64,000 nucleotides of DNA, from NCBI GenBank assembly GCA_014879535.1, contig JACSRX010000035.1, positions 1 through 64,000 on the forward strand, given 5' to 3'. Each line of letters begins with the position of its first letter. Positions within the stretch are counted from its first letter, which is position 1. Source of the stretch: Chthoniobacterales bacterium (lineage in GTDB: Bacteria; Verrucomicrobiota; Verrucomicrobiia; Chthoniobacterales; JACTMZ01). Under the pieces are notes generated by a model. It ran no database searches and was not told where the DNA came from. It saw only the letters and a list, made by a program, of their open reading frames with translations. The position numbers and the translations under genes are program-made. Below, piece after piece: positions 43,822 through 60,595 of the stretch.

Positions 43822-44676
43822 TCAGTGAGCAAACAGGAACTGCATCTTCCGTCCGGAGGTCGACCCGTCGGGCTTTACAATGATGCTACACCGCGTGCGG
43901 GCGTGAAGGGTTCGGTGGTTGTCGATGACCGTGATATCTCCTGATTGCAGGTGGAGTGTCTCCACATTTTCTGCCGCTTTCCGCTCAAACGCAAGCATCA
44001 TGGATGACTGTTCCGGAGTCGGGAGTGTTCCGCGCACGCGGAAACCTTGGCGGATGCGAGAGCGGTGGTAACGCGCCAGGAAGCGGCCGCTCGCCGCGTC
44101 CCGGCTGATTATTGGTGACTCGAGTATGTCGACACCTTCGGCTGCATTGCGTCCGGCAAAGGGCAACGCTACCGACATGAATTGTTGAATATCCAAGTCA
44201 CTCTCAACCCCAAAACACATCGCCTCAATGTCTGCGATCTGCAACGCACCCCAACCGGGGGTCGGATCTGGCTCAATGCAAAGCGACATGGTCAACCGCG
44301 CAGGGTTCGCTAGCATGCTGTAGTCGGTGTGAAGCGGTAAGTGGCGGAGTTGATTGCCCATAAGCGACTCACTCGGACGGACATGGGCACCGATTACGGC
44401 GGAGCCCTCAGCCGGGTCGATGAAAGGCGAGCCAAGGAGCGCAGCTAGCGCGGGAAACAGCACACGGGTGCCTTCATCTGGCAGTCCCCGAACTTGGGCA
44501 AAACCCTGCTCCTCTACCACTGACCGCACAAGGGAGGCCAAAACACCGAGGGGAGCTTGTTTTAAGGCCTCGCAACGGAGGCGCTCCACAGCCGCTGTAT
44601 CTGTCAATTGCTCGGTCGGCAGCGCCGACGCACAGCACCTAAGCGCGGTGGTTACTTCGGGCGAAAGAAGCAACAT
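43822..44676 (-). CDS. TauD/CAS-like Fe(II)/2-oxoglutarate-dependent oxygenase
   Basis: LRHLPLHTDYSML (HxD-type) and GDITVIDNHRTLHARTRC (distal His/Arg); start taken at MLLLSPEV. Confidence 0.75.
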   Translation of the reverse strand: MLLLSPEVTTALRCCASALPTEQLTDTAAVERLRCEALKQAPLGVLASLVRSVVEEQGFAQVRGLPDEGTRVLFPALAALLGSPFIDPAEGSAVIGAHVRPSESLMGNQLRHLPLHTDYSMLANPARLTMSLCIEPDPTPGWGALQIADIEAMCFGVESDLDIQQFMSVALPFAGRNAAEGVDILESPIISRDAASGRFLARYHRSRIRQGFRVRGTLPTPEQSSMMLAFERKAAENVETLHLQSGDITVIDNHRTLHARTRCSIIVKPDGSTSGRKMQFLFAH

Positions 44677-44704
44677 CCTGTGCCTGTCTACTGGCAGGCA
44701 ACTC

Positions 44705-45136
44705 TTAGCGGCAATCCTTGGAAGAGCATCGATGCATCGTGCCAATCATTGGGCCGCCAAACTCCAACTCCCAAAGCTCGCACGTATCAATCCATGCCGC
44801 CTGATTGGCTTCCCAGTCATCATTGCCATAAACTCCGAAATATGGATCGTGGTGGAGGTAGCCGCCAAAAAGTCTCTGGCAATCGGCCATGTACTTTCGA
44901 GTATCCAAAATATGGTAGTGCCAAACGAGATCAATGAGTCCGCTTGGCACTAACGTTCGGTCCGGATAACGCTGACGCAGGGTCAAAAACCGGCGATACG
45001 CCAACTCGGCTACCTCCGGATTGATTGGTTCCCCATGCAAAGACTCACCTTCGCATTGAATTTTGAACAAGATCGGGCCTAGGTCTACATCTACGAGTGG
45101 AGCAATGGAGGACGACATGGATTGCCGTGTACCCAT
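44705..45136 (-). CDS. GRDP-like (glycine-rich-domain-protein-like) protein with short Cys-containing tail
   Basis: LVPSGLIDLVWHYHILDTRKYMADCQRLFGGYLHHDPYFG; C-terminal MHRCSSKDCR. Confidence 0.6.
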   Translation of the reverse strand: MGTRQSMSSSIAPLVDVDLGPILFKIQCEGESLHGEPINPEVAELAYRRFLTLRQRYPDRTLVPSGLIDLVWHYHILDTRKYMADCQRLFGGYLHHDPYFGVYGNDDWEANQAAWIDTCELWELEFGGPMIGTMHRCSSKDCR

Positions 45137-49645: not shown

Positions 49646-50515
49646 TCAAGAGCCTGTGGTGCGAGGATCGGAAAACATGGGCTCAAAGGCAGCGAAGGGA
49701 ATCGAAACGCTCTCCCAGCTTCCTGAGCCGAGGTCTGTCGGGATATGGGCCTGAATCTCCTGCGGCTCAATGACCGCTAGGCGCGGCGCTGCATTCGCAC
49801 GCGCATCCCACAGATGGAAAACGTGATGTGCGACCTCCAATGCTCGTTCCCACTCGTTGCGAGTGAGGTGGAATGAACCCGCGAGGCCCACCGTGGAGGT
49901 CTTAACTTCAATCGAGAGCTGACGGAGACTGTCTGATCCGACAACGGAGAGAATATCATAACCGTCCGCATTGTTTTCTATCGCGACCCACTCCGGCTTC
50001 TGGCCCGTGCGATTCTCCTCGTAAGCCAGACTAAGCCGCTCGCCGTGGCGCCCGATGGCGGTCAATCGACCGCTTTTCTGCCCTCGCGCTCTCGCTGCAA
50101 GTTCGTCCCAAAATGCTACAACGCTGTCGTCTGTGCCGTGGGCTAAGCCCGCCTCAACAAACACTTGGGCGATCTCATTACCCGCGAAAGCGAGGACCCG
50201 TGCACGTCCAAATGACGCGTTCTGCACCCAAGGTGGACGCAAGACATCGATGTAGTCGAGGAGCGCGTGCCGAAGCATCGGCTCGTAGCCGACGATGCTT
50301 AGCAGTTGGGAGCCAGAGGGAGTGACGCCGACGGTGCCGTCGTCGTTCGCGTGTATCCACCCGAGCCCTTGCGTCGTCTCGACGACCTTGCTTGCCGCAA
50401 TGCTGCCAAAGTAGGCAAACGAAGTGTGAATCTCTTGGAACGTGAGCGAATTGCGGGATGCGATACCGAGTAGGTCGAAGCACCCCTGCGCGAGACCGGG
50501 AGATAAGGTGATCAC
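49646..50515 (-). CDS. DUF3883-like (nuclease-fold) protein
   Basis: ENNADGYDILSVVGSDSLRQLSIEVKTST...FHLTRNEWERA. Confidence 0.75.
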   Translation of the reverse strand: MITLSPGLAQGCFDLLGIASRNSLTFQEIHTSFAYFGSIAASKVVETTQGLGWIHANDDGTVGVTPSGSQLLSIVGYEPMLRHALLDYIDVLRPPWVQNASFGRARVLAFAGNEIAQVFVEAGLAHGTDDSVVAFWDELAARARGQKSGRLTAIGRHGERLSLAYEENRTGQKPEWVAIENNADGYDILSVVGSDSLRQLSIEVKTSTVGLAGSFHLTRNEWERALEVAHHVFHLWDARANAAPRLAVIEPQEIQAHIPTDLGSGSWESVSIPFAAFEPMFSDPRTTGS

Positions 50516-52338
50516 GACTCCTCCATCGAGAGCGCATTGAACAGGGCTTGGATGTCGTCGGCTGAAAGCCCTGTGCTGTATTCGTCGAAGTCCTCGATGT
50601 CCGTTGGATCAAGGGGAATTGGATCAGGCCGCAGGGACGAGTCTTCGAGCGCCTCGGCCATCTGTCCAATCTTGTAGCCGAGTCGCTCCCGCACCGTTTC
50701 GTCCACGCTGCCGATGCACTCGACAATCTCGATTGTCGTCTTCTGGTCCTTCGGCAAGCCGAACCGATGGATGCGGTCTTCCGATTGCAGGTAATGGGCT
50801 GCGTTGAATGTGCGATCGAGATAGAGCGCATGGTGACAGACGCGGTGCAGACTCACGCCTTCGCTCGCAGCCGCAGGGTTCGCGACCATTACCAGCACGG
50901 CGGGATCGTCGTGGAAGAGTTTGATTTTCCCCTCGCGGGTTTCGTCGTCGTCCTCGTTGCCGGCATCGACGCCGCCGTGAATATAGACCGCGCCCAGATC
51001 GAGCAGGCGTTCCGCAATGTATTCGACGTTGCGAACGAACGACGACCAGATGAGCACCTTCTCGCCGCTCCGCGCGAGTTGCCGCGCCTTCTTTAGCACA
51101 TACTTCAGCTTCGGCCCTTCGCCCTCAGCCAGCACCGCCGCGAGCAAGTCGGGATGAGCAAAGCCGATCTCTGCGGAGAGCAACGCCGGGTTGGAGACAA
51201 ATTGCAGAAGGCGCGCCACGGATCTGCCGAGAGATCGGAAGACTTGCTTGTTGCGGATGCTCAGAGCGGTCGCCGCCTCCCGCGCTACCTCAAACTTCAT
51301 GAGGCGATACAGTTCCTGCTGCATCGGCGCGAGCGGTAGCTTGGCCAGCACGCGGGTTACGGGCGGAAGTCCAAGCTCCTTCTTGTTAGTTCGCACATAG
51401 ACCGGACGAATGAGATCCACCACGTTTTCAGCCGTCGCCGGTATCTCTGGATAGAGGAAAGCGAACTGCGGGATCAAATCCTCAGTCGCCTGCGGCATCG
51501 GCGTGCCCGACATGATTAGCTTGCCGACAGGCAGGTGAGATAGCCCGAGCGCTGCGCGTGCAGTCTGCTTGCCGACACCGCTCTTGATGCGGTGGCTCTC
51601 GTCCAGAAAGACGTGGATGCTGTGGCGTGCACAGTGAGCGGCAATGAGATCGGGGACTCGGGCGAGTTGCTGATAGGTGATCAGCATGAACCGCGGGTCT
51701 TCATCCAGTAGCTTTGCGATCTTCTCCTTCCCCCCGCGAAGCCGGACGAACGTGGCGTTCAGGTGCGGCATACAGTCCTGCATCTGCTCGTCCCACGCCG
51801 CGAAGGCGTTCTTCGGCGCAATGACCAAAAGGCGCTCGTCGGTCTTCGCCTTGTAGAAGAAGCAGGCCAGCGCTTCGGTGGTCTTACCTGCGCCCGGGAC
51901 CGAGAAGGTCGCCGCGGACGGCAGCGCCGCTATCTTGCAGACGTTCCGCGCCTGCTCAGGCGAGAGACTCCTGCGGAATCCGATTTCGGTGAGCTTGCTG
52001 CGCAGGTCAGCTTCCACAACGGCGACCGCACTCGTCGCGAGGTTGTAGCCGTCTGCCGCGCGCTTCGACTGGCGCAATAAATCGGCGGCTGGTTGCGTGA
52101 TCTCCAGAGTGCTTCCCGGTGCCAAGCCATAACCCTTGAAGACCTCCAAAAGCTGATTGCGCAGCGAGGCGAAGCTCCACCACGGGAGTGAGATGTGGTA
52201 GCCGTCTTCCTGCGCCGCGTCGTCGGTGTGATCGAAGATGAGGCGCCGGATAATATCCAGCCACGGGGCGCTTGCCTCACCCTCACCCCACGACAGCAAC
52301 GCGCGCCGGTCGGCCTCGCGGTAGTCAATCCTGAGCAT
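50512..52338 (-). CDS. SNF2-family DEAD/DEAH helicase
   Basis: FSVPGAGKTTEAL; VFLDESHRIKSG; MSGTPMPQ; RIHRFGLPKDQKTTIEIV. Confidence 0.88.
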   Translation of the reverse strand: MLRIDYREADRRALLSWGEGEASAPWLDIIRRLIFDHTDDAAQEDGYHISLPWWSFASLRNQLLEVFKGYGLAPGSTLEITQPAADLLRQSKRAADGYNLATSAVAVVEADLRSKLTEIGFRRSLSPEQARNVCKIAALPSAATFSVPGAGKTTEALACFFYKAKTDERLLVIAPKNAFAAWDEQMQDCMPHLNATFVRLRGGKEKIAKLLDEDPRFMLITYQQLARVPDLIAAHCARHSIHVFLDESHRIKSGVGKQTARAALGLSHLPVGKLIMSGTPMPQATEDLIPQFAFLYPEIPATAENVVDLIRPVYVRTNKKELGLPPVTRVLAKLPLAPMQQELYRLMKFEVAREAATALSIRNKQVFRSLGRSVARLLQFVSNPALLSAEIGFAHPDLLAAVLAEGEGPKLKYVLKKARQLARSGEKVLIWSSFVRNVEYIAERLLDLGAVYIHGGVDAGNEDDDETREGKIKLFHDDPAVLVMVANPAAASEGVSLHRVCHHALYLDRTFNAAHYLQSEDRIHRFGLPKDQKTTIEIVECIGSVDETVRERLGYKIGQMAEALEDSSLRPDPIPLDPTDIEDFDEYSTGLSADDIQALFNALSMEES

Positions 52339-53644
52339 GCTCCGTGAGGTATTTCCGTATCTTATCCGACTGGGCTTGTATCTGGTCTAGTTGCTTCGCA
52401 ACTCCGGCGAGTTTCGATTCCGGACGCAATCCATCTTTGACCGCAGCGGCCAGCAAAGCTTGAGCTTTGGCACAGCAGTCGAGCAGGTAGTTGGCGCTCT
52501 TCGCGTCCTTCTTGAGCTGCTTCTGGCTCTCGATGACCTCGACAATGATCTTGCGCGCCTTTTCGGCGTTCTCGGGCTTTTGAATCTCTGCGGCGAGCGG
52601 CATGTCGATAGACTTCTCGCCCGCCGCGACTGTGACGCCGCCAAAGAGTCCATCAAGCTGCGCGTCGGGTGCTGCCGGCTTCACATCGAATTCGTCCTGA
52701 AGTTTCTCTCTCACCTGATCGAGGCTCTCCATGATCGCCGGGATCGCCTCATACAGACGACCGCCCGCATCCTCGGGTTTCTCGATCAAAGTGTAGGCCG
52801 CTTGCTTGAAAACTTCCTGGCTGCCGATTCCGGAGATCTTCGGCCTGGAAGTGACGATCTTCCGAAATGCAAACTCGTGCTCCGACACCTGAGACCAGAG
52901 GTTGGCCTTGTTGCGCGAGCGCAGGTATTCGTCCGCGTAGGAGCGCATGTCGAGAAGCTCTTGCACTTCGCTCTCCTTCATCTTGTATAACTCCGCGAGT
53001 TCCTTGTTGGAGAACCCGTCCCGCTTCTGCTTCGCGAGCATCATGTTGGCCTGAGCGTCCCAGCTATAGTCCGCCTTGATGTCCTTCTCGATCTGCAAGC
53101 TGGCTTCGAGTCGATCGATTTCCCGTTCCTCACTGTGCGGCAGCACCGCAACATCGACGTGGCGAAAATGACCGTATTTCTCGGGGTGTTTGAAAAGCAG
53201 TTCGCGCCATGTCGCGAGACGGCGATTGCCATTAACCACGAAGCCATTTTCATCCAAAAGAATCGGGTCGATTTGCTTGTTGCCAGTGTCCTCGAAGTAT
53301 TTTTGAAGGTCCGCTTGCTTCGCGAGTTGGAGCAGAAGGATGTGTTGAGCTTCTTGGGCGTCCCATAGCTCCGCATCGCCCGAGAAGAGGTCTTTACGTG
53401 CGGCTGGATTCTTTGCCAAATACTCAGACTGCAATGAAGCGGTGCGTCCGTTTGCCATCCGATATTTCGGAAGCTCAATCGGCACGCGCACGATTCGGAT
53501 GTCCTGGGTCTTTTCCTGAAAGACGACGCGCGTTGTTGCGTCGCCTGGCTTCGCTAAGAGCTTCTTGAACTCTTCGGTGCGTGCAGGCTTAGGCCAGCCA
53601 AACCGGGAACTCGTGGGCGTTGGTGAGGGAGGGTTCGTGGGCAT
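52325..53644 (-). CDS. ParB-like nuclease-domain protein
   Basis: DPILLDENGFVVNGNRRLATWREL...DVAVLP...FSNKELAELYKMKESEVQELLDM. Confidence 0.75.
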   Translation of the reverse strand: MPTNPPSPTPTSSRFGWPKPARTEEFKKLLAKPGDATTRVVFQEKTQDIRIVRVPIELPKYRMANGRTASLQSEYLAKNPAARKDLFSGDAELWDAQEAQHILLLQLAKQADLQKYFEDTGNKQIDPILLDENGFVVNGNRRLATWRELLFKHPEKYGHFRHVDVAVLPHSEEREIDRLEASLQIEKDIKADYSWDAQANMMLAKQKRDGFSNKELAELYKMKESEVQELLDMRSYADEYLRSRNKANLWSQVSEHEFAFRKIVTSRPKISGIGSQEVFKQAAYTLIEKPEDAGGRLYEAIPAIMESLDQVREKLQDEFDVKPAAPDAQLDGLFGGVTVAAGEKSIDMPLAAEIQKPENAEKARKIIVEVIESQKQLKKDAKSANYLLDCCAKAQALLAAAVKDGLRPESKLAGVAKQLDQIQAQSDKIRKYLTEHAQD

Positions 53645-53647
53645 GTT

Positions 53648-54103
53648 TTATTCGAGTGCGAAAATGAGCGTTGGGACGTGGTAGGCTTTCCTGAATATGG
53701 CGAGCTCGCGCTCAAGCCGAGTGGACTGCGCGATATTGTCTCCAAGCAACGCAGCCATCGGTTGCGAGGGCACAACGATTGCCGCCGACTTGATCGCGTT
53801 GTCGAGATACATCGTCTGCAGCTTGATCATATCTGCATACATCCGCGCCATATTGCCGGTTTGCATGCAGAGCCCGACATTGTCCTTCATCGAGGTAATC
53901 GTCATGTCGGAGTCCATCGACACAGCAACCTCGCCGGACCATCCCGAGCTTTTTAGGTGGGCGAGAAAGGCATCGCGGATCTTTGGCGCAGCCTTCGGCG
54001 CCGGCTTAACAGTGATCGCTTTGATGGCCGCCTCGATTTCTTTCTGGGTAGACTTGGGAATTGCTTTGTCGCCCGCGCAGTGACTGTGGAGCACGCAGTT
54101 CAT
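53648..54103 (-). CDS. BglII-like restriction endonuclease
   Basis: KDNVGLCMQTGNMARMYADMIKLQTMYLDNAIKSAAIVVPSQPMAALLGDN pattern of the BglII/BstYI-like family; adjacent to methyltransferase. Confidence 0.6.
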   Translation of the reverse strand: MNCVLHSHCAGDKAIPKSTQKEIEAAIKAITVKPAPKAAPKIRDAFLAHLKSSGWSGEVAVSMDSDMTITSMKDNVGLCMQTGNMARMYADMIKLQTMYLDNAIKSAAIVVPSQPMAALLGDNIAQSTRLERELAIFRKAYHVPTLIFALE

Positions 54104-55080
54104 TGAAATGCCCCCGCCTTGAATCCAGCCGGTGGCTTGGAAAGGTTGCTTTGGGTGTGATCGTAGATCGGCTTGTCGTGCGGCCGATAAGTAGCCTTTC
54201 CGGCGAGTGCGTCGCGCACACGGCTCAAGCCGATTGCTGCATACTCGGCCACAATCTCGCAGCCCCAGAATCGGCGCCCGTGCATTGCCGCAGCAACGCC
54301 TGCCGAAGCTACACCAGCAAACGGATCGAACACGAGATCGCCGCGGTTTGTGAGTGCGAGCACGAGCCGCTCAATCAACCCGACCGGAAACTGGCAGGGG
54401 TGTCCTGTCTTCTCGATGTGGTTGCTTTTCACGTTCGGAATGTTCCAGACATCTTCCGGGTTCTTACCCAGCGGGTTGCCTGAGAATTGGCCCGCCTTTG
54501 GCCCCTTAAAGTGTTTTTTGCCCGGATACTTCGCCGGCGTGCGAACAGCATCCAAATTGAATGTGTAGGTGTCCTTCTTCAACTCCGTTTTCGTATACCA
54601 CATCACGACTTCGTAACGCCCAGAGAATCGTCGCTGAGTGTGCAGGCCATGCCCGAACTGCCACACGATCCGGTTTCGTAGCTGGAGCCGATGCTTTTTA
54701 AAAATCGGAGCGAACTCGATATCCAACGGGAAGATTTCGTTGTCATCCACGTAGTTTCCGACCTGCCAGCAAATGCTCCCGCCTTTTTTCAATCTCGGGA
54801 TCAACTCGGCAATAATTCGTGCCTGCCATTCCAAGTATTTGTCCAGCTCCATACGTGCCTCATACTCCTTGCCGATGTTGTATGGTGGCGATGTGACGAT
54901 GAGATCAAACAGCGGTTCCGTCGGCAGGCCCTTGAGGAAGGATTCTGTGTCCCCATGCCAGATGGCGTGAGACAAAGTCATCATGGCGCTGGCGTGGACG
55001 CTCTTCAGCAGACTCGCGGTTGGTCTGGCCGGCGTCTTGGGGCGGCAATTGCGGGTAGAGCGTTCGATGTTCAAAGGCAT
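54100..55080 (-). CDS. site-specific DNA methyltransferase (TSPPY type)
   Basis: LIVTSPPYNIGKEYE; GDLVFDPFAGVASAGVAA. Confidence 0.88.
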   Translation of the reverse strand: MPLNIERSTRNCRPKTPARPTASLLKSVHASAMMTLSHAIWHGDTESFLKGLPTEPLFDLIVTSPPYNIGKEYEARMELDKYLEWQARIIAELIPRLKKGGSICWQVGNYVDDNEIFPLDIEFAPIFKKHRLQLRNRIVWQFGHGLHTQRRFSGRYEVVMWYTKTELKKDTYTFNLDAVRTPAKYPGKKHFKGPKAGQFSGNPLGKNPEDVWNIPNVKSNHIEKTGHPCQFPVGLIERLVLALTNRGDLVFDPFAGVASAGVAAAMHGRRFWGCEIVAEYAAIGLSRVRDALAGKATYRPHDKPIYDHTQSNLSKPPAGFKAGAFQ

Positions 55081-55291: not shown

Positions 55292-56095
55292 TTACTCCTC
55301 CCAGAGGAACTTCACGCCGTCGGCGGCCGTGCGCGTGCGGGCCTCTTGGTTCTTGTTCTTCTTGAACGCCCCGAGGCACTCGACTTCCGAGGCCCGGCGG
55401 CACAGCCCGATCGCCGTGGCCACGTGGTGCTGGACCTTCTGCAGATTCGTGGTTCCCGCGAAGGCTCGGAACTCGACGAGGCCGTGGCTAAACAGTTTGC
55501 GGAAGTTCACCATCCCGCGCCCGCACGCCACCGCCGCGTCATTCTTGGTCCGCGGGCTCGGATGCCGCTCCATCGTGCGCACCAGATGCGCCACGTCCGC
55601 CGCGAACGTGTGGCTGTAGTGGTTCAGGTGACGCCCCGTGCCCGTCTGCCCGTAGATCGAGCGGGCGTGCCACTGCGCGATGTGGGCGAGCTTCTTGGCG
55701 AACTCCCCGCGCTTGTTCTGGTCGCTTGTCCCGATCACCGAGTCCACGCTCACCGTCACATGGCAGCCGCAGGAGTCGTTCACCGTTGCGCCGATCTCGT
55801 TCATCCACCCCACGAAGTCGCAGAGCGCGGACACCCCTTGCTCGCCGTGGAGGATCGGGCTGACGAACTCGCATGGCACGCCCGGCCCCCGGATCGATCC
55901 GTCCCGCTCGGCCCGCCAGGTCAGGCGTCCGAACTTGGGTGCGGCGATCACCGTGCCATCTGTCTTGCGCAGCCCGCCAGCCACGGGTGTCCCGCTGTGG
56001 TAGCTGCCCACTTGAACCCCGCTCGTGGCGGGGATGCTTGTTTCCAGCTCCACTCCGAAGAGGACGCTGGCGGCTTTGATGTCCGGCTTTTTCAT
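55292..56095 (-). CDS. amidoligase-family protein
   Basis: FGVELETS; DSCGCHVTVSVD; VEFRAFAGTTN pattern of COOH-NH2 amidoligases. Confidence 0.7.
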   Translation of the reverse strand: MKKPDIKAASVLFGVELETSIPATSGVQVGSYHSGTPVAGGLRKTDGTVIAAPKFGRLTWRAERDGSIRGPGVPCEFVSPILHGEQGVSALCDFVGWMNEIGATVNDSCGCHVTVSVDSVIGTSDQNKRGEFAKKLAHIAQWHARSIYGQTGTGRHLNHYSHTFAADVAHLVRTMERHPSPRTKNDAAVACGRGMVNFRKLFSHGLVEFRAFAGTTNLQKVQHHVATAIGLCRRASEVECLGAFKKNKNQEARTRTAADGVKFLWEE

Positions 56096-56140
56096 AACCA
56101 GCTTAGCCTCTGACAGTTGTGACTTTTTGTCGCGCGCCTT

Positions 56141-56277
56141 GTGACGCCATATTTTTCACCATTATGTTGGCGCCCAACGAGTTGGCATGGTTTTTGACAC
56201 GATGAAAGGGCACCCCGTTTCCGCGTTTATCAGCCGTGGGAACTCACGAGCCGACAGCCTCCATAAGAAGCGTTTTG
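56141..56277 (-). promoter_or_regulatory. conserved non-coding block, minus-strand copy
   Basis: reverse complement matches 30427-30549. Confidence 0.7.
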
Positions 56278-56328
56278 GGCAGCTGGTATGGGGATAGCCC
56301 CGAGGATGCGCGGACGGGCGCTACGGGC

Positions 56329-57210
56329 TCAAAGGTCCCACGCCTCACGCCACCCCACGAACTTCGGGAACCGCGGCGCGTCCTTGGCCCCGCTCGGCTG
56401 GTGGCGGAACTTGACCAGCCGGCCAACCAGCTCCTCCCGCCGCTCCCACAGGCTCACCCGGTCCACGCCACCGAGCACGTGGTTGTAGCCGAGGCGGAAC
56501 TCCACGCCGGTGTCCACAACGCGCACCACGAACCCGCCCAACTCGCCCCGGCCCACCATGCCCGCCTTGGACAGACTGCGCTTCGTGCGCCCGAACGCAT
56601 CCCGCTCGGCTTCGTTCTGGTTGCTCATCCCCTCGTAGCTCTCAAGCACCACGGCCTCCGCGTCCTCGAACCGCTTGATCTTGAGCAGCCACCCCTCGCG
56701 CTCGGTCGAACGCCCGCACTTATACGGACCGGCCGGATCGCGCACCATCACGCCCTCGTAGCCCTCGGCCAGACAGCGCTCCTCGAACGCCGCCAGTTCG
56801 TCCGCATCGCGGATCTCCACCGGCAACACCTTGGCCACATGGTCCCACTCGGGCAGGCGCTCCAACTCCCGCACCCGGCAGGCATACGGCACATCGAGCC
56901 CGTCGTTCACGAAGTCGAACACATGAAACACAAAGTCCGGCTCGCCGCTCTCCCGCCCGATGGCGCTCGTCGTGGCATTGAACGTGCCGCCCCGCAGCAT
57001 CAGTTCCCCGTCCACCCCGTCCGGCAGGTTCGCCTCGATCCACTCGCGGGCGAACGTGTTGCTGATCGGCTTGAACGACCGGGTCAGCGCCCGGCCCCCG
57101 ATCTTGAGGCATCGGATGCCGTCCAGCTTCGGCGTGGCCAGCACCGGAAAGTTCAGGGCCTCGGGCCGCTCGCATTTGCCGGCGAGCATCGGCTTCTTGA
57201 TCGCGTTCAT
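56329..57210 (-). CDS. ATP-dependent DNA ligase
   Basis: FPVLATPKLDGIRC (KxDG), DGELMLRGG, EGVMVRDP, EGWLLKIKRF. Confidence 0.9.
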   Translation of the reverse strand: MNAIKKPMLAGKCERPEALNFPVLATPKLDGIRCLKIGGRALTRSFKPISNTFAREWIEANLPDGVDGELMLRGGTFNATTSAIGRESGEPDFVFHVFDFVNDGLDVPYACRVRELERLPEWDHVAKVLPVEIRDADELAAFEERCLAEGYEGVMVRDPAGPYKCGRSTEREGWLLKIKRFEDAEAVVLESYEGMSNQNEAERDAFGRTKRSLSKAGMVGRGELGGFVVRVVDTGVEFRLGYNHVLGGVDRVSLWERREELVGRLVKFRHQPSGAKDAPRFPKFVGWREAWDL

Positions 57211-57211
57211 G

Positions 57212-57228
57212 GTGCGTGACTCGCGTAG
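57212..57228. promoter_or_regulatory. operator-like imperfect palindrome at DNA ligase start
   Basis: GTGCGTGACTCGCGTAG, related to CTACGCGACTTGCGTAG. Confidence 0.45.
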
Positions 57229-57230
57229 TG

Positions 57231-57455
57231 TCATCCGCAGAACGAAACCTCGCCGGTCCCGATGGCCGTGAGCCGTCCCACGAGCGTGCCCAAGTTGAAC
57301 TTGCGCAGGCCCCTGTTTTCTACGTCCCAGACCGTGATGAGTCCGCCCCCGCCGAGCTTGGCGGGCGACGTGGTGAAGCGCATCGTGCGGGCCTCACCCG
57401 AGGCCTTCACGAACGTGCCGATGTATTGAGTGCGTTGGTGGATGTTTGCTTTCAT
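57231..57455 (-). CDS. small hypothetical phage protein
   Basis: 74-aa ORF preceded by repeated upstream element. Confidence 0.5.
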   Translation of the reverse strand: MKANIHQRTQYIGTFVKASGEARTMRFTTSPAKLGGGGLITVWDVENRGLRKFNLGTLVGRLTAIGTGEVSFCG

Positions 57456-57482
57456 CCTCCTTGGCCTCTCGCAGAGTCCGCA

Positions 57483-57559
57483 CTGAGTCCATCAGTTTTC
57501 CCGCACCATTTTTGCGGGCTATTTGGCCCGTCACCCACACCGTTGGCATGATGTTTGAC
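57483..57559 (-). promoter_or_regulatory. repeated phage upstream element
   Basis: minus-strand GTCAAACATCATGCCAAC...AAAAATGGTGCGGGAAAACTGATGGACTCAG. Confidence 0.6.
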
Positions 57560-57573
57560 GCCGCTGAAGGATC

Positions 57574-58062
57574 TCAAAATCGCTCCGCAAACTCGCCCCG
57601 CGCCACCCGCTCCGCACCGCGAACCAAGAAGTAGGCCCACGCCTCACGACGCCGCCCGTTCTCCTCCACCACTCCGATCACGCGCCGCCGGTAGAAACGC
57701 GGATGTCCCTCGAGGCGGTCGAGACGCGCCCACCCCTCGGCCGACGTCACCCGATACAATTCGCCCTCAACGCAGTGCCCGCGCCCCGGCATGTCGAGCA
57801 GGTAGGGCAGCCCGTCGATCACCAGCGGAAGCCGGTCTTCCGTGCGCACTTCGGCGAGGAACTCGCCCTCCGCATCCCGCATCACCCGATGGTTGCCGAG
57901 GCCGCGCTTGAGCGTGCCATACACAAAGAGCAAATCGGTCTGCACGGCCGCATTCAACTTGCCCGCGTGTCCCGAAGGAAGCGCTCGATTTCCTCGGCCG
58001 AAAACAACGGGCGACGGCATGCCACGCTCGGACGGATCAACCCACGCTTGCATAGCCGCCAC
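57574..58062 (-). CDS. gamma-glutamylcyclotransferase-like (GGCT/AIG2) protein
   Basis: LLFVYGTLKRGLGNH...RLDRLEGHPRFYRRRVI. Confidence 0.82.
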   Translation of the reverse strand: MAAMQAWVDPSERGMPSPVVFGRGNRALPSGHAGKLNAAVQTDLLFVYGTLKRGLGNHRVMRDAEGEFLAEVRTEDRLPLVIDGLPYLLDMPGRGHCVEGELYRVTSAEGWARLDRLEGHPRFYRRRVIGVVEENGRRREAWAYFLVRGAERVARGEFAERF

Positions 58063-59109: not shown

Positions 59110-59823
59110 TCACACGCCGAGGTGGACGCTCTGACGGCGGCTCACATCAACGGCCACCCGGTCCTGGCTCTTGTAGGTCTCGAATCGCATGTGGGCCTTC
59201 CACTTGCTCTTGAGATACCGCTTCTCCGCCGCGATGCGCTCGGCCGACCGGAACAGCGAGTTGCCGCCGAGGTTCTTGTCGCGTTCTTGGGCGAAGCAGA
59301 AACGGGCCTCGTTCCACACCAGGCGGTTCACCATGAGTTCGGTCAGCGTGGCGTCGATGTCGCACTTGCACTTGAGCAGTTCGTCCCATCGCACGTCCTT
59401 GCCGATCACGCCCACGGCCCCGCCCATCCAGTGATGCACTCCGAACGGGTCATTGCGCTGGAGGAGTCTGGGGTCGCTGCGTTGGTGCCAGCCGAACAGC
59501 CGCGCCCCGGCCCCAAACGCACAGTGGGCCGAGTTCTCCACCATGGCGGCGGTTTCTTCGACGGAGAGCTTCCTCACTTTCAGACTCACCATGCACATGC
59601 AGGCCGAGATGTCGTCATCGAGCATGATCAGGCATTCCTCGGGAAACCGGGCGATGATCCAGTTCCTCACGGCACTCACCCCCGAGATGTCAGGCGGGAT
59701 GGGCACACGTGCGAGCGGCACTTGGGCGTAGGCCTCCATCTCATTCTCCGGCACGACCAGTGTGGCCGAGGGGAACAGCCGGTGCGTTGTGATCGTGCGG
59801 TGCCGCCCCCGGCTCATGATCAC
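59110..59823 (-). CDS. TET-associated-glycosyltransferase (TAGT)-like GT-A protein
   Basis: CVIMSRGRHRTITTHRLFPSATLVVPENEMEAY...IMLDDDISA; start uncertain (GTG 59823 or nearby TTG), because the longer called ORF overlaps a tRNA. Confidence 0.6.
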   Translation of the reverse strand: MIMSRGRHRTITTHRLFPSATLVVPENEMEAYAQVPLARVPIPPDISGVSAVRNWIIARFPEECLIMLDDDISACMCMVSLKVRKLSVEETAAMVENSAHCAFGAGARLFGWHQRSDPRLLQRNDPFGVHHWMGGAVGVIGKDVRWDELLKCKCDIDATLTELMVNRLVWNEARFCFAQERDKNLGGNSLFRSAERIAAEKRYLKSKWKAHMRFETYKSQDRVAVDVSRRQSVHLGV

Positions 59824-59861
59824 GCACCGGATGGGCAATCGCCGCAGTTCGGGAAACTGGC

Positions 59862-59936
59862 TGGTTGCAGGGCCGGGACTCGAACCCGGATCTGGCGGGC
59901 ATGAGCCGCCCGTGACACCACTTTCACCACCCTGCG
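59862..59936 (-). tRNA. tRNA-Met(CAU), initiator-like C1:A72 mismatch, encoded CCA
   Basis: CGCAGGG/CCCTGCA acceptor, GTGA/TCAC D stem, GGCGG-CTCATGC-CCGCC anticodon arm, CCGGG-TTCGAGT-CCCGG T arm, ACCA end. Confidence 0.88.
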
Positions 59937-59938
59937 GT

Positions 59939-60595
59939 TCAGCCTTGGGCCGCCGCTTTTTGCGCAAGTTCGATGAGTCGTTTTCCATGAAGCACGCGGC
60001 CAATGCCGATTTTCTTGGTCTTGCGGGTGATCGAGTAATCCACCTCGGTCACGCCGATGAGTTGAAGGGCGAGCATCCAGTCCCGCAGGTCGTGGAACAT
60101 GAAGACCAGATAGTCGTGGTGCTCGAAGGGCTGGCACTCCATCCGCGGGATCGTCTCCAAGTCCTCGGCCTCCTCTTCCGCAAACAACTTGGCGATCTCG
60201 TCTTCCATGAACCCGGTCAGTTCCACATCGAACTCCGGGTCCGCCTCGCGCAGCCTCTCCACCACCCGCTTGAGGTCGTCCTCGTCGAGTTCAGCCAACT
60301 CGGAAAGCCGATTGTCGGCCAGCAAGTCGGCCAGTTCCGCCGCTTCGCTCTCGTAGTCTTGCCGGTCCACCGGCACCGTCTCGCAGCCCATGAGCAGTGC
60401 GGCCTCCAGTCGCCCGTGGCCTCGGACGATCAGCCCACTCCTCTTGCTCACCGTGATTGGCGAGCGCCACCCCTGCTCCTGGATGATCGCCGCCAGAAGC
60501 TGGATCTGGTGGGCACTGTGGCGGTTCGGGTTGCCCGGGTTCGGCTTGAGCGTTCGCGGGTCAACCAACTCGCTGTGGGCACAATGCACGGTCAT
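59939..60595 (-). CDS. ParB-like nuclease-domain phage protein
   Basis: LKPNPGNPNRHSAHQIQLLAAIIQEQGWRSPITVSKRSGLIVRGHGRLEAA. Confidence 0.85.
   Translation of the reverse strand: MTVHCAHSELVDPRTLKPNPGNPNRHSAHQIQLLAAIIQEQGWRSPITVSKRSGLIVRGHGRLEAALLMGCETVPVDRQDYESEAAELADLLADNRLSELAELDEDDLKRVVERLREADPEFDVELTGFMEDEIAKLFAEEEAEDLETIPRMECQPFEHHDYLVFMFHDLRDWMLALQLIGVTEVDYSITRKTKKIGIGRVLHGKRLIELAQKAAAQG

Follow-up and report, generated by a model that had tools for sequence, protein, structure and literature searches.

Why should a methyltransferase (MTase) gene and a gene resembling the restriction endonuclease (REase) BglII stand in one operon with genes for a ParB-like protein, an SNF2-family ATPase and a NOV_C/DUF3883 protein? 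The five genes lie on the minus strand inside a phage block of a Chthoniobacterales bacterium (assembly GCA_014879535.1, contig JACSRX010000035.1, positions 1 to 64,000; this whole stretch of 64,000 nucleotides (nt) is called the window below). A sequence-only reading had taken the first two genes for a working type II restriction-modification (R-M) pair and the other three for an "unusual extension". Our analysis did not bear this out, as the BglII-like protein is without both catalytic acids. Instead, we consider it about two-thirds probable that the five genes form a multi-subunit R-M system, carried as phage cargo, in which recognition and cutting are split between subunits.

Conservation of the gene set and exchange of the methyltransferase

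The BglII-like family was scanned against ~85,000 species genomes together with viral contigs, which yielded 65 loci; the denominators for linkage are those loci with enough sequence for the gene in question. The ParB-like gene directly follows the BglII-like gene in 62 of 63 loci, the SNF2 gene is linked in 59 of 61 and the NOV_C/DUF3883 gene in 55 of 56. Among the 65 loci, the sole one without an adjacent ParB gene (L077) has a truncated BglII-like gene. According to the record titles, the hosts include Alpha-, Beta- and Gammaproteobacteria, Verrucomicrobia, Planctomycetota, Acidobacteria, Ignavibacteria/Mucilaginibacter, Marinimicrobia, Latescibacterota and Firmicutes. Because the same order recurs in dozens of unrelated genomes, the gene order of the cassette is far beyond chance. 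The cassette is uncommon, with a ParB profile identifying 3 carriers among 384 genomes of the window's class, and its relatives are found mostly on bacterial genome contigs and once on a large plasmid.

The MTase is the variable member. An amino-MTase gene stands directly upstream of the BglII-like gene in 52 of the 65 loci, and one conserved C5-MTase family takes its place in 11 of the remaining 13, located on the opposite strand just past the NOV_C gene (10/11) or, in L037, upstream of the BglII-like gene. At one locus, L003, the gene after the C5-MTase resembles a Vsr-type endonuclease, as judged from its translation. Thus, the conserved core consists of genes 2-5 (BglII-like, ParB-like, SNF2 and NOV_C), whereas the MTase is exchangeable. 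All five genes are present, for example, in Paracoccus denitrificans DSM 413 (L044). Given that the MTase is swapped while the other four genes are kept together, the cassette cannot be described as a type II R-M pair to which an extension was added. The sequence-only reading had also considered that only the MTase and REase genes might be conserved together; the opposite was seen.

Within the window, all five open reading frames (ORFs) are open, and their strand and coordinates, checked through ORFs and translations, agree exactly with those reported before. The MTase and BglII-like genes overlap by 4 nt, a gap of 3 nt separates the BglII-like from the ParB-like gene, and overlaps of 14 nt and 4 nt join the ParB-like to the SNF2 gene and the SNF2 to the NOV_C gene, respectively. 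Together with the conserved linkage in homologous loci, these overlapping or near-touching genes support the earlier proposal of a single coupled, restriction-like operon. Each gene taken singly falls into a broad family already known, so that a chance juxtaposition of an ordinary type II R-M pair and an unrelated three-gene defence module might be considered. We give this explanation next to no credence in view of the strict linkage across phyla, the overlapping genes, the exchangeable MTase and the dead REase described below. A simple type II R-M system with chance neighbours was likewise rejected on account of the linkage and the dead site.

Fold and active site of the BglII-like protein

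The BglII-like protein matched two Pfam families close to their thresholds, namely BglII (1.6e-5; 25.1 bits, just below the 26-bit cut-off) and BamHI (7.7e-5; 22.9 bits, just above the cut-off of 22.8). Its AlphaFold model (pLDDT 95.7) was matched by Foldseek to BstYI (1.4e-9), OkrAI (1.8e-9), BglII (2.2e-8) and BamHI (2.4e-8), all with a probability of 1.00 and with TMq values of up to 0.85; no fold besides that of these four enzymes was returned by Foldseek at a significant E-value. Profile searches with the family agreed, matching BstYI (6.6e-6), OkrAI (5e-5) and BamHI (6.8e-4).

The fold has been kept and the active site has been lost. When BstYI (KDRVAIEVQFG) and BamHI (RVGMEFETGN) are aligned to the family by profile, their catalytic Glu corresponds to C79 of the window's protein and the next Q/E to Q81. 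Position 79 is C, Q or G, with D or E in 0 of 48 aligned members. The expected position of the catalytic Asp, residue 70, is T, F, A, S or V, again with D or E in 0/48, the register of this position being taken from the nine-residue D-to-E spacing in BglII and BstYI and not from a structural alignment. G54, W55, Q81, T82, G83, N84, R87, D91 and K94 are invariant in 48/48 members, and N84 aligns with N116 of BamHI, a base-contacting residue. According to a review of type II REases (PMC4081073), BamHI has E and BglII has Q where the active-site motif otherwise carries its lysine.

Because both catalytic acids are absent in every member examined, the BglII-like protein cannot plausibly cut as BglII does. 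A protein that is strongly constrained and has no metal-binding site suggests a reader, not a cutter. With BamHI, BglII, BstYI and OkrAI the cassette protein has in common the fold, the conserved Q/TGN segment and a neighbouring MTase; unlike these enzymes, it is without both catalytic acids and, where intact, always accompanied by ParB, SNF2 and NOV_C. An MTase gene beside a gene of REase fold, as expected of type II R-M, is present, but the catalytic PD-(D/E)xK-type site of the REase is absent. As this defining cutting site finds no match in the sequence, the cassette is, on that basis, not a member of type II R-M.

Active enzymes nevertheless share this fold, and the next helix holds an invariant acidic residue, D91. 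On these grounds, the BglII-like protein might be seen as a still active REase of unorthodox design, with relocated catalytic residues, to which ParB, SNF2 and NOV_C are added as an accessory back-up or abortive module. We regard this as unlikely: both acids are missing throughout the family, not merely the Glu that some enzymes relocate, and D91 also occurs in the active BstYI (YDL), so that it is not a compensating change. Moreover, a BglII-like gene lacks its adjacent ParB gene only where it is truncated, and other REase families with these same partners have lost their active sites as well (see below).

BstYI, OkrAI, BglII and BamHI read GATC-centred sites. Since all confident fold matches are restriction enzymes with such sites, AGATCT and RGATCY, proposed before as motifs worth testing, are a sensible first guess for the putative target of the cassette.

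Other endonuclease families and the proposed division of labour

The ParB-SNF2 pair also occurs with REase-like genes unrelated to the BglII-like family. A second REase family (P0006-P0008 and L088; ~288 residues) is found on plasmids of Kozakia, Azospirillum and Rhizobium and on one viral contig, and P0006 matched the PADLOC profile REase_II (5.9e-19). In members next to ParB-SNF2-NOV_C, the active-site segment reads IIQK or VIQK. Stand-alone relatives on viral contigs keep D..E[LA]K in 26/26 with the segment aligned (the truncated L141 was left out of the count), as does a Rhizobium copy: one Rhizobium plasmid locus (L010:827-9119) holds dead and live paralogs, of which the live copy adjoins a C5-MTase and keeps D..E[LA]K. 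With identities of 58-68%, the ParB-linked members group closely together, and so the active site was probably lost in a single event. Two members of this family were also seen on Kozakia baliensis plasmid NZ_CP014678, one beside ParB and the other beside a C5-MTase and vsr.

In a third, BanI/DpnII-like family, S..D[VI][ST] replaces D..ExK in 5/5 members. The family adjoins an intact NOV_C (P0012, P0015) and was found on viral contigs that we judged to be Firmicute-like. No usable match was obtained in a PDB sequence search with this family, and among 289 genomes searched for BanI-family controls standing alone, a single weak match was obtained, so that the case for a third dead family consists of the motif alignment and weak Pfam similarity. 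The fourth case comes from Lactiplantibacillus, where the last gene is homologous to the C-terminal domain of Sau3AI (~4e-42), the non-cutting regulatory half of that enzyme. The SNF2 protein of this locus has a fused PbeA/PLD-like N-terminus, and no NOV_C was found at the locus.

The parallel loss of active sites in unrelated families is our strongest argument that sequence reading is what has been kept. We lean somewhat towards a general scheme in which type II REases, drawn from no fewer than three or four unrelated families, were stripped of their nuclease in separate events and became exchangeable specificity subunits of a shared ParB-like/SNF2/NOV_C machine; a new site would be gained by capturing a REase-MTase pair and losing the active site of the REase. 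If this is true, a restriction target can change by capture of an existing REase, with loss of its cutting site and with cutting passed to a common motor-nuclease. Many orphan or "inactive" REase-like genes would thereby acquire a function and represent a set of natural site-specific DNA readers. For annotation, genes labelled "type II REase" beside ParB-SNF2-DUF3883 are probably not cutters.

The other core proteins point to complementary roles. The ParB-like protein gave no Pfam match above cut-off, and its AlphaFold model (pLDDT 92.1) was matched by Foldseek to Noc, ParB, Spo0J and KorB with probabilities of ~1.0, E-values of only ~5e-3 and target-normalised TM scores mostly of 0.35-0.59. 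The GNRR signature, E180 and Q184 are invariant in 61/61 relatives, residues that are not matched one by one to the nucleotide (CTP) contacts of ParB. Among SNF2 homologs (n=77), Walker A is conserved in 75, DExH in 72 and motif VI in 70. The nuclease signature lost from the BglII-like protein is kept in the fifth gene: in 62/62 NOV_C proteins, taken from the cassette loci and their relatives, E159, G185, D187, E203, K205 and E221 are invariant (motif E..D..ExK..E). This residue pattern is that of a PD-(D/E)xK nuclease, making NOV_C the predicted cutting subunit, and DUF3883 was described in 2013 as a novel REase domain (PMC3710099). A second NOV_C domain lies elsewhere in the host genome (C82:26492-26758, minus strand), in an open frame of 1163 residues; an SNF2-like stretch lies close by, so that this may be a fusion of a helicase to DUF3883.

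The relatives of the MTase in the PDB are RsrI, MboIIA, CcrM, cytosine-N4 MTases and PvuII. Of 53 homologs, 47 have TSPPY as motif IV and the other 6 have SSPPY; TSPPY, the form usual in N4-cytosine MTases, points to m4C as the probable product. As the tblastn match to L005 starts at residue 33, the real start of the MTase may lie ~33 codons inside the annotated ORF, near 54984.

In the division of labour that we propose, the TSPPY MTase would mark a short site in self DNA, probably with a methylated C, and the dead BglII-fold protein, as specificity subunit, would bind the same site when unmethylated. The ParB-like protein may link the complex or load it on DNA, as a clamp (perhaps nucleotide-gated) or an adaptor; if the proposal holds, what ParB-type clamps do in defence becomes a testable question. 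The SNF2 ATPase would then translocate along invading DNA, and NOV_C/DUF3883, in which alone the nuclease signature is intact, would cut it, which is how the complex might act against other phages.

Several observations weigh against this proposal. L143 combines ParB-SNF2-NOV_C with a Dam-type MTase and has no REase-like gene. In L087, the partner of ParB-SNF2 is a protein of MutH type with an apparently intact motif (GVEIKTS), and no NOV_C was seen on this contig, which begins at ParB. On the viral contigs L108, L110 and L113, ParB-like and SNF2 genes lie directly downstream of genes that, judged from their translations, are type III mod-res-like. Furthermore, the identification of the ParB-like protein comes from its fold, at moderate E-values, a PDB sequence search with NOV_C gave no usable solved relative, and the REase genes were reached through relatives of ParB-linked members, by which a distant stand-alone branch may have been missed. 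L142 is a decayed copy without the BglII-like gene. These six loci (L087, L108, L110, L113, L142 and L143) would fit a putative rule of one live nuclease per locus. In L108, L110 and L113, the ParB-SNF2 pair looks like a module that assists R-M of another type.

L143 is also the locus that would be expected if the dead BglII-like protein were a regulator or inhibitor, for instance of the expression or activity of the MTase or the nuclease, with SNF2-NOV_C and ParB recognising DNA alone; ParB-like proteins can indeed bind DNA through a helix-turn-helix (HTH). However, the presence of four unrelated REase types in the same role is most easily explained by kept sequence reading matched to the MTase, and no variation is seen in the segment that aligns with BamHI N116. 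We therefore consider a regulatory role improbable, to about the same degree as an active REase.

Table 1 Features of the five-gene cassette in the window
Feature	Position	Strand	Description
Amino-MTase	54100..55080	minus	326 aa; PF01555 (N6_N4_Mtase) 2.5e-48; beta-class amino-DNA-methyltransferase
MTase motif IV TSPPY, residues 63-67	54880..54894	minus	From sequence
BglII/BamHI-fold protein	53648..54103	minus	151 aa; from fold and Pfam; predicted sequence-reading subunit
T70 codon	53894..53896	minus	Expected catalytic Asp position (BglII D84, BstYI D119)
C79 codon	53867..53869	minus	Catalytic Glu position (BstYI E128, BglII E93, BamHI E111)
Invariant QTGN, residues 81-84	53852..53863	minus	48-member alignment
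ParB/Srx-superfamily protein	52325..53644	minus	439 aa; ParB-N-like and HTH-like domains, long helical C-terminus
GNRR, residues 139-142, ParB-like signature	53219..53230	minus	Invariant in 61/61
SNF2-family superfamily 2 (SF2) ATPase	50512..52338	minus	608 aa; PF00176 2.1e-16, PF00271 3.9e-6; predicted double-stranded DNA translocase
SNF2 Walker A GAGKTT, residues 149-154	51877..51894	minus	Sequence and alignment
NOV_C/DUF3883 protein	49646..50515	minus	289 aa, GTG start; PF13020 3.7e-11; predicted PD-(D/E)xK nuclease
NOV_C D187 codon	49955-49957	minus	Alignment of 62 members
NOV_C ExK motif, E203-V-K205	49901..49909	minus	Alignment of 62 members

Known systems and the phage setting

The sequence-only reading had found no named system for this gene set and had suggested a PADLOC search. 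PADLOC 2023 returned only the generic MTase_II and REase_II and weak helicase and DUF3883 matches, and no system's protein set was matched. No match to the window's ParB-like protein was found in PADLOC 2023, and its 61 relatives gave two weak matches to PD-Lambda-5_A. A description of this gene set was not found in the open-access literature, a coverage that leaves subscription papers and preprints mostly outside. We regard the cassette as a new form of restriction-modification in which labour would be divided in a surprising way. It is unnamed within PADLOC 2023 and the open-access literature, and the earlier statement stands within that range. PD-Lambda-5 itself, described as a compacted prophage system of R-M and abortive infection (RM+Abi), was set aside; the sole domain label in the accessible part of its description is "methyltransferase", and that part makes no mention of ParB.

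Among known R-M types, the cassette resembles type I (HsdRMS) in the predicted separation of recognition, methylation, translocation and cutting, but there is no HsdS-type protein, the MTase is free-standing and exchangeable, the SNF2 protein is not HsdR and the nuclease has its own gene. The CglI and NgoAVII systems combine an MTase, a recognising subunit and a helicase-like ATPase, as the cassette is predicted to do, and cleave in an NTP-dependent manner (PMC4267653, PMC5737866). They comprise M, R and N only and their R protein is the endonuclease, whereas the cassette has no R-type protein with its own nuclease; its predicted reader is a dead REase, its nuclease is separate (NOV_C), and ParB-like and NOV_C proteins are extra. 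In the proposed coupling of motor and recognition, the cassette is akin to type I or CglI/NgoAVII, yet by composition it is a member of neither.

The most similar published contexts in the open-access literature are operons with SNF2, MORC, Vsr and Dcm and operons with SNF2-DUF3883 fusions and a HEPN protein. The former are R-M operons with a SWI2/SNF2 helicase, a MORC ATPase, Vsr and a C5-MTase (PMC2292703), and likewise place an SNF2-family helicase near an MTase and Vsr-type nucleases; C5-MTase and Vsr occur in several cassette relatives. Neither ParB nor DUF3883 appears in the text of that paper, and the window's cassette has no MORC/GHKL ATPase. The latter share SNF2 and DUF3883 with the cassette, but there the SNF2 helicase is fused to DUF3883 and accompanied by an Ava_2192-type HEPN protein (HEPN-AAA), with no dead REase reader in the accessible part of PMC3710099; in the cassette, SNF2 and DUF3883 are separate genes. 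The helicases of Zorya (ZorD), Dpd (DpdE), DISARM (DrmD) and BREX showed weak similarity to the SNF2 protein (best 63.5 bits, ZorD), and no further component of these systems was matched in the cassette.

PHROG matches around the cassette comprised a terminase large subunit, an ATP-dependent DNA ligase, an amidoligase and a primase/helicase-type ATPase, and 16 related phage contigs keep the ligase-amidoligase pair with no match to the cassette. Next to the cassette, Amidoligase_2, the ATP-dependent DNA ligase and a gamma-glutamyl cyclotransferase-like gene occupy 55292-58062 (minus strand). In one related phage, the genes downstream of the amidoligase encode a HATPase-domain protein and a C5-type MTase (L155:11870-15492, minus strand), which suggests that this side of the amidoligase is a cargo spot. 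Both the absence of the cassette from related phages and the arrangement in L155 support the cargo position proposed earlier.

With its window copy in a phage that has a separate ParB-like gene (59939-60595), the cassette might instead serve the phage itself, in anti-restriction, replication or partition, and not in the restriction of competitors. We hold this to be very unlikely, since most relatives reside on bacterial contigs, one on a large plasmid, and the sixteen related phages keep ligase-amidoligase and not the cassette.

The phage block further encodes a glycosyltransferase of the TET-associated (TAGT, 8.8e-9)/glucosyl-HMC-glucosyltransferase type (59110-60003, minus strand), which hints at modified bases in the phage DNA. 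Close to the block, slightly overlapping ORFs at 43822-45136 (minus strand) encode a TauD-type dioxygenase and a protein with a GRDP-like domain.

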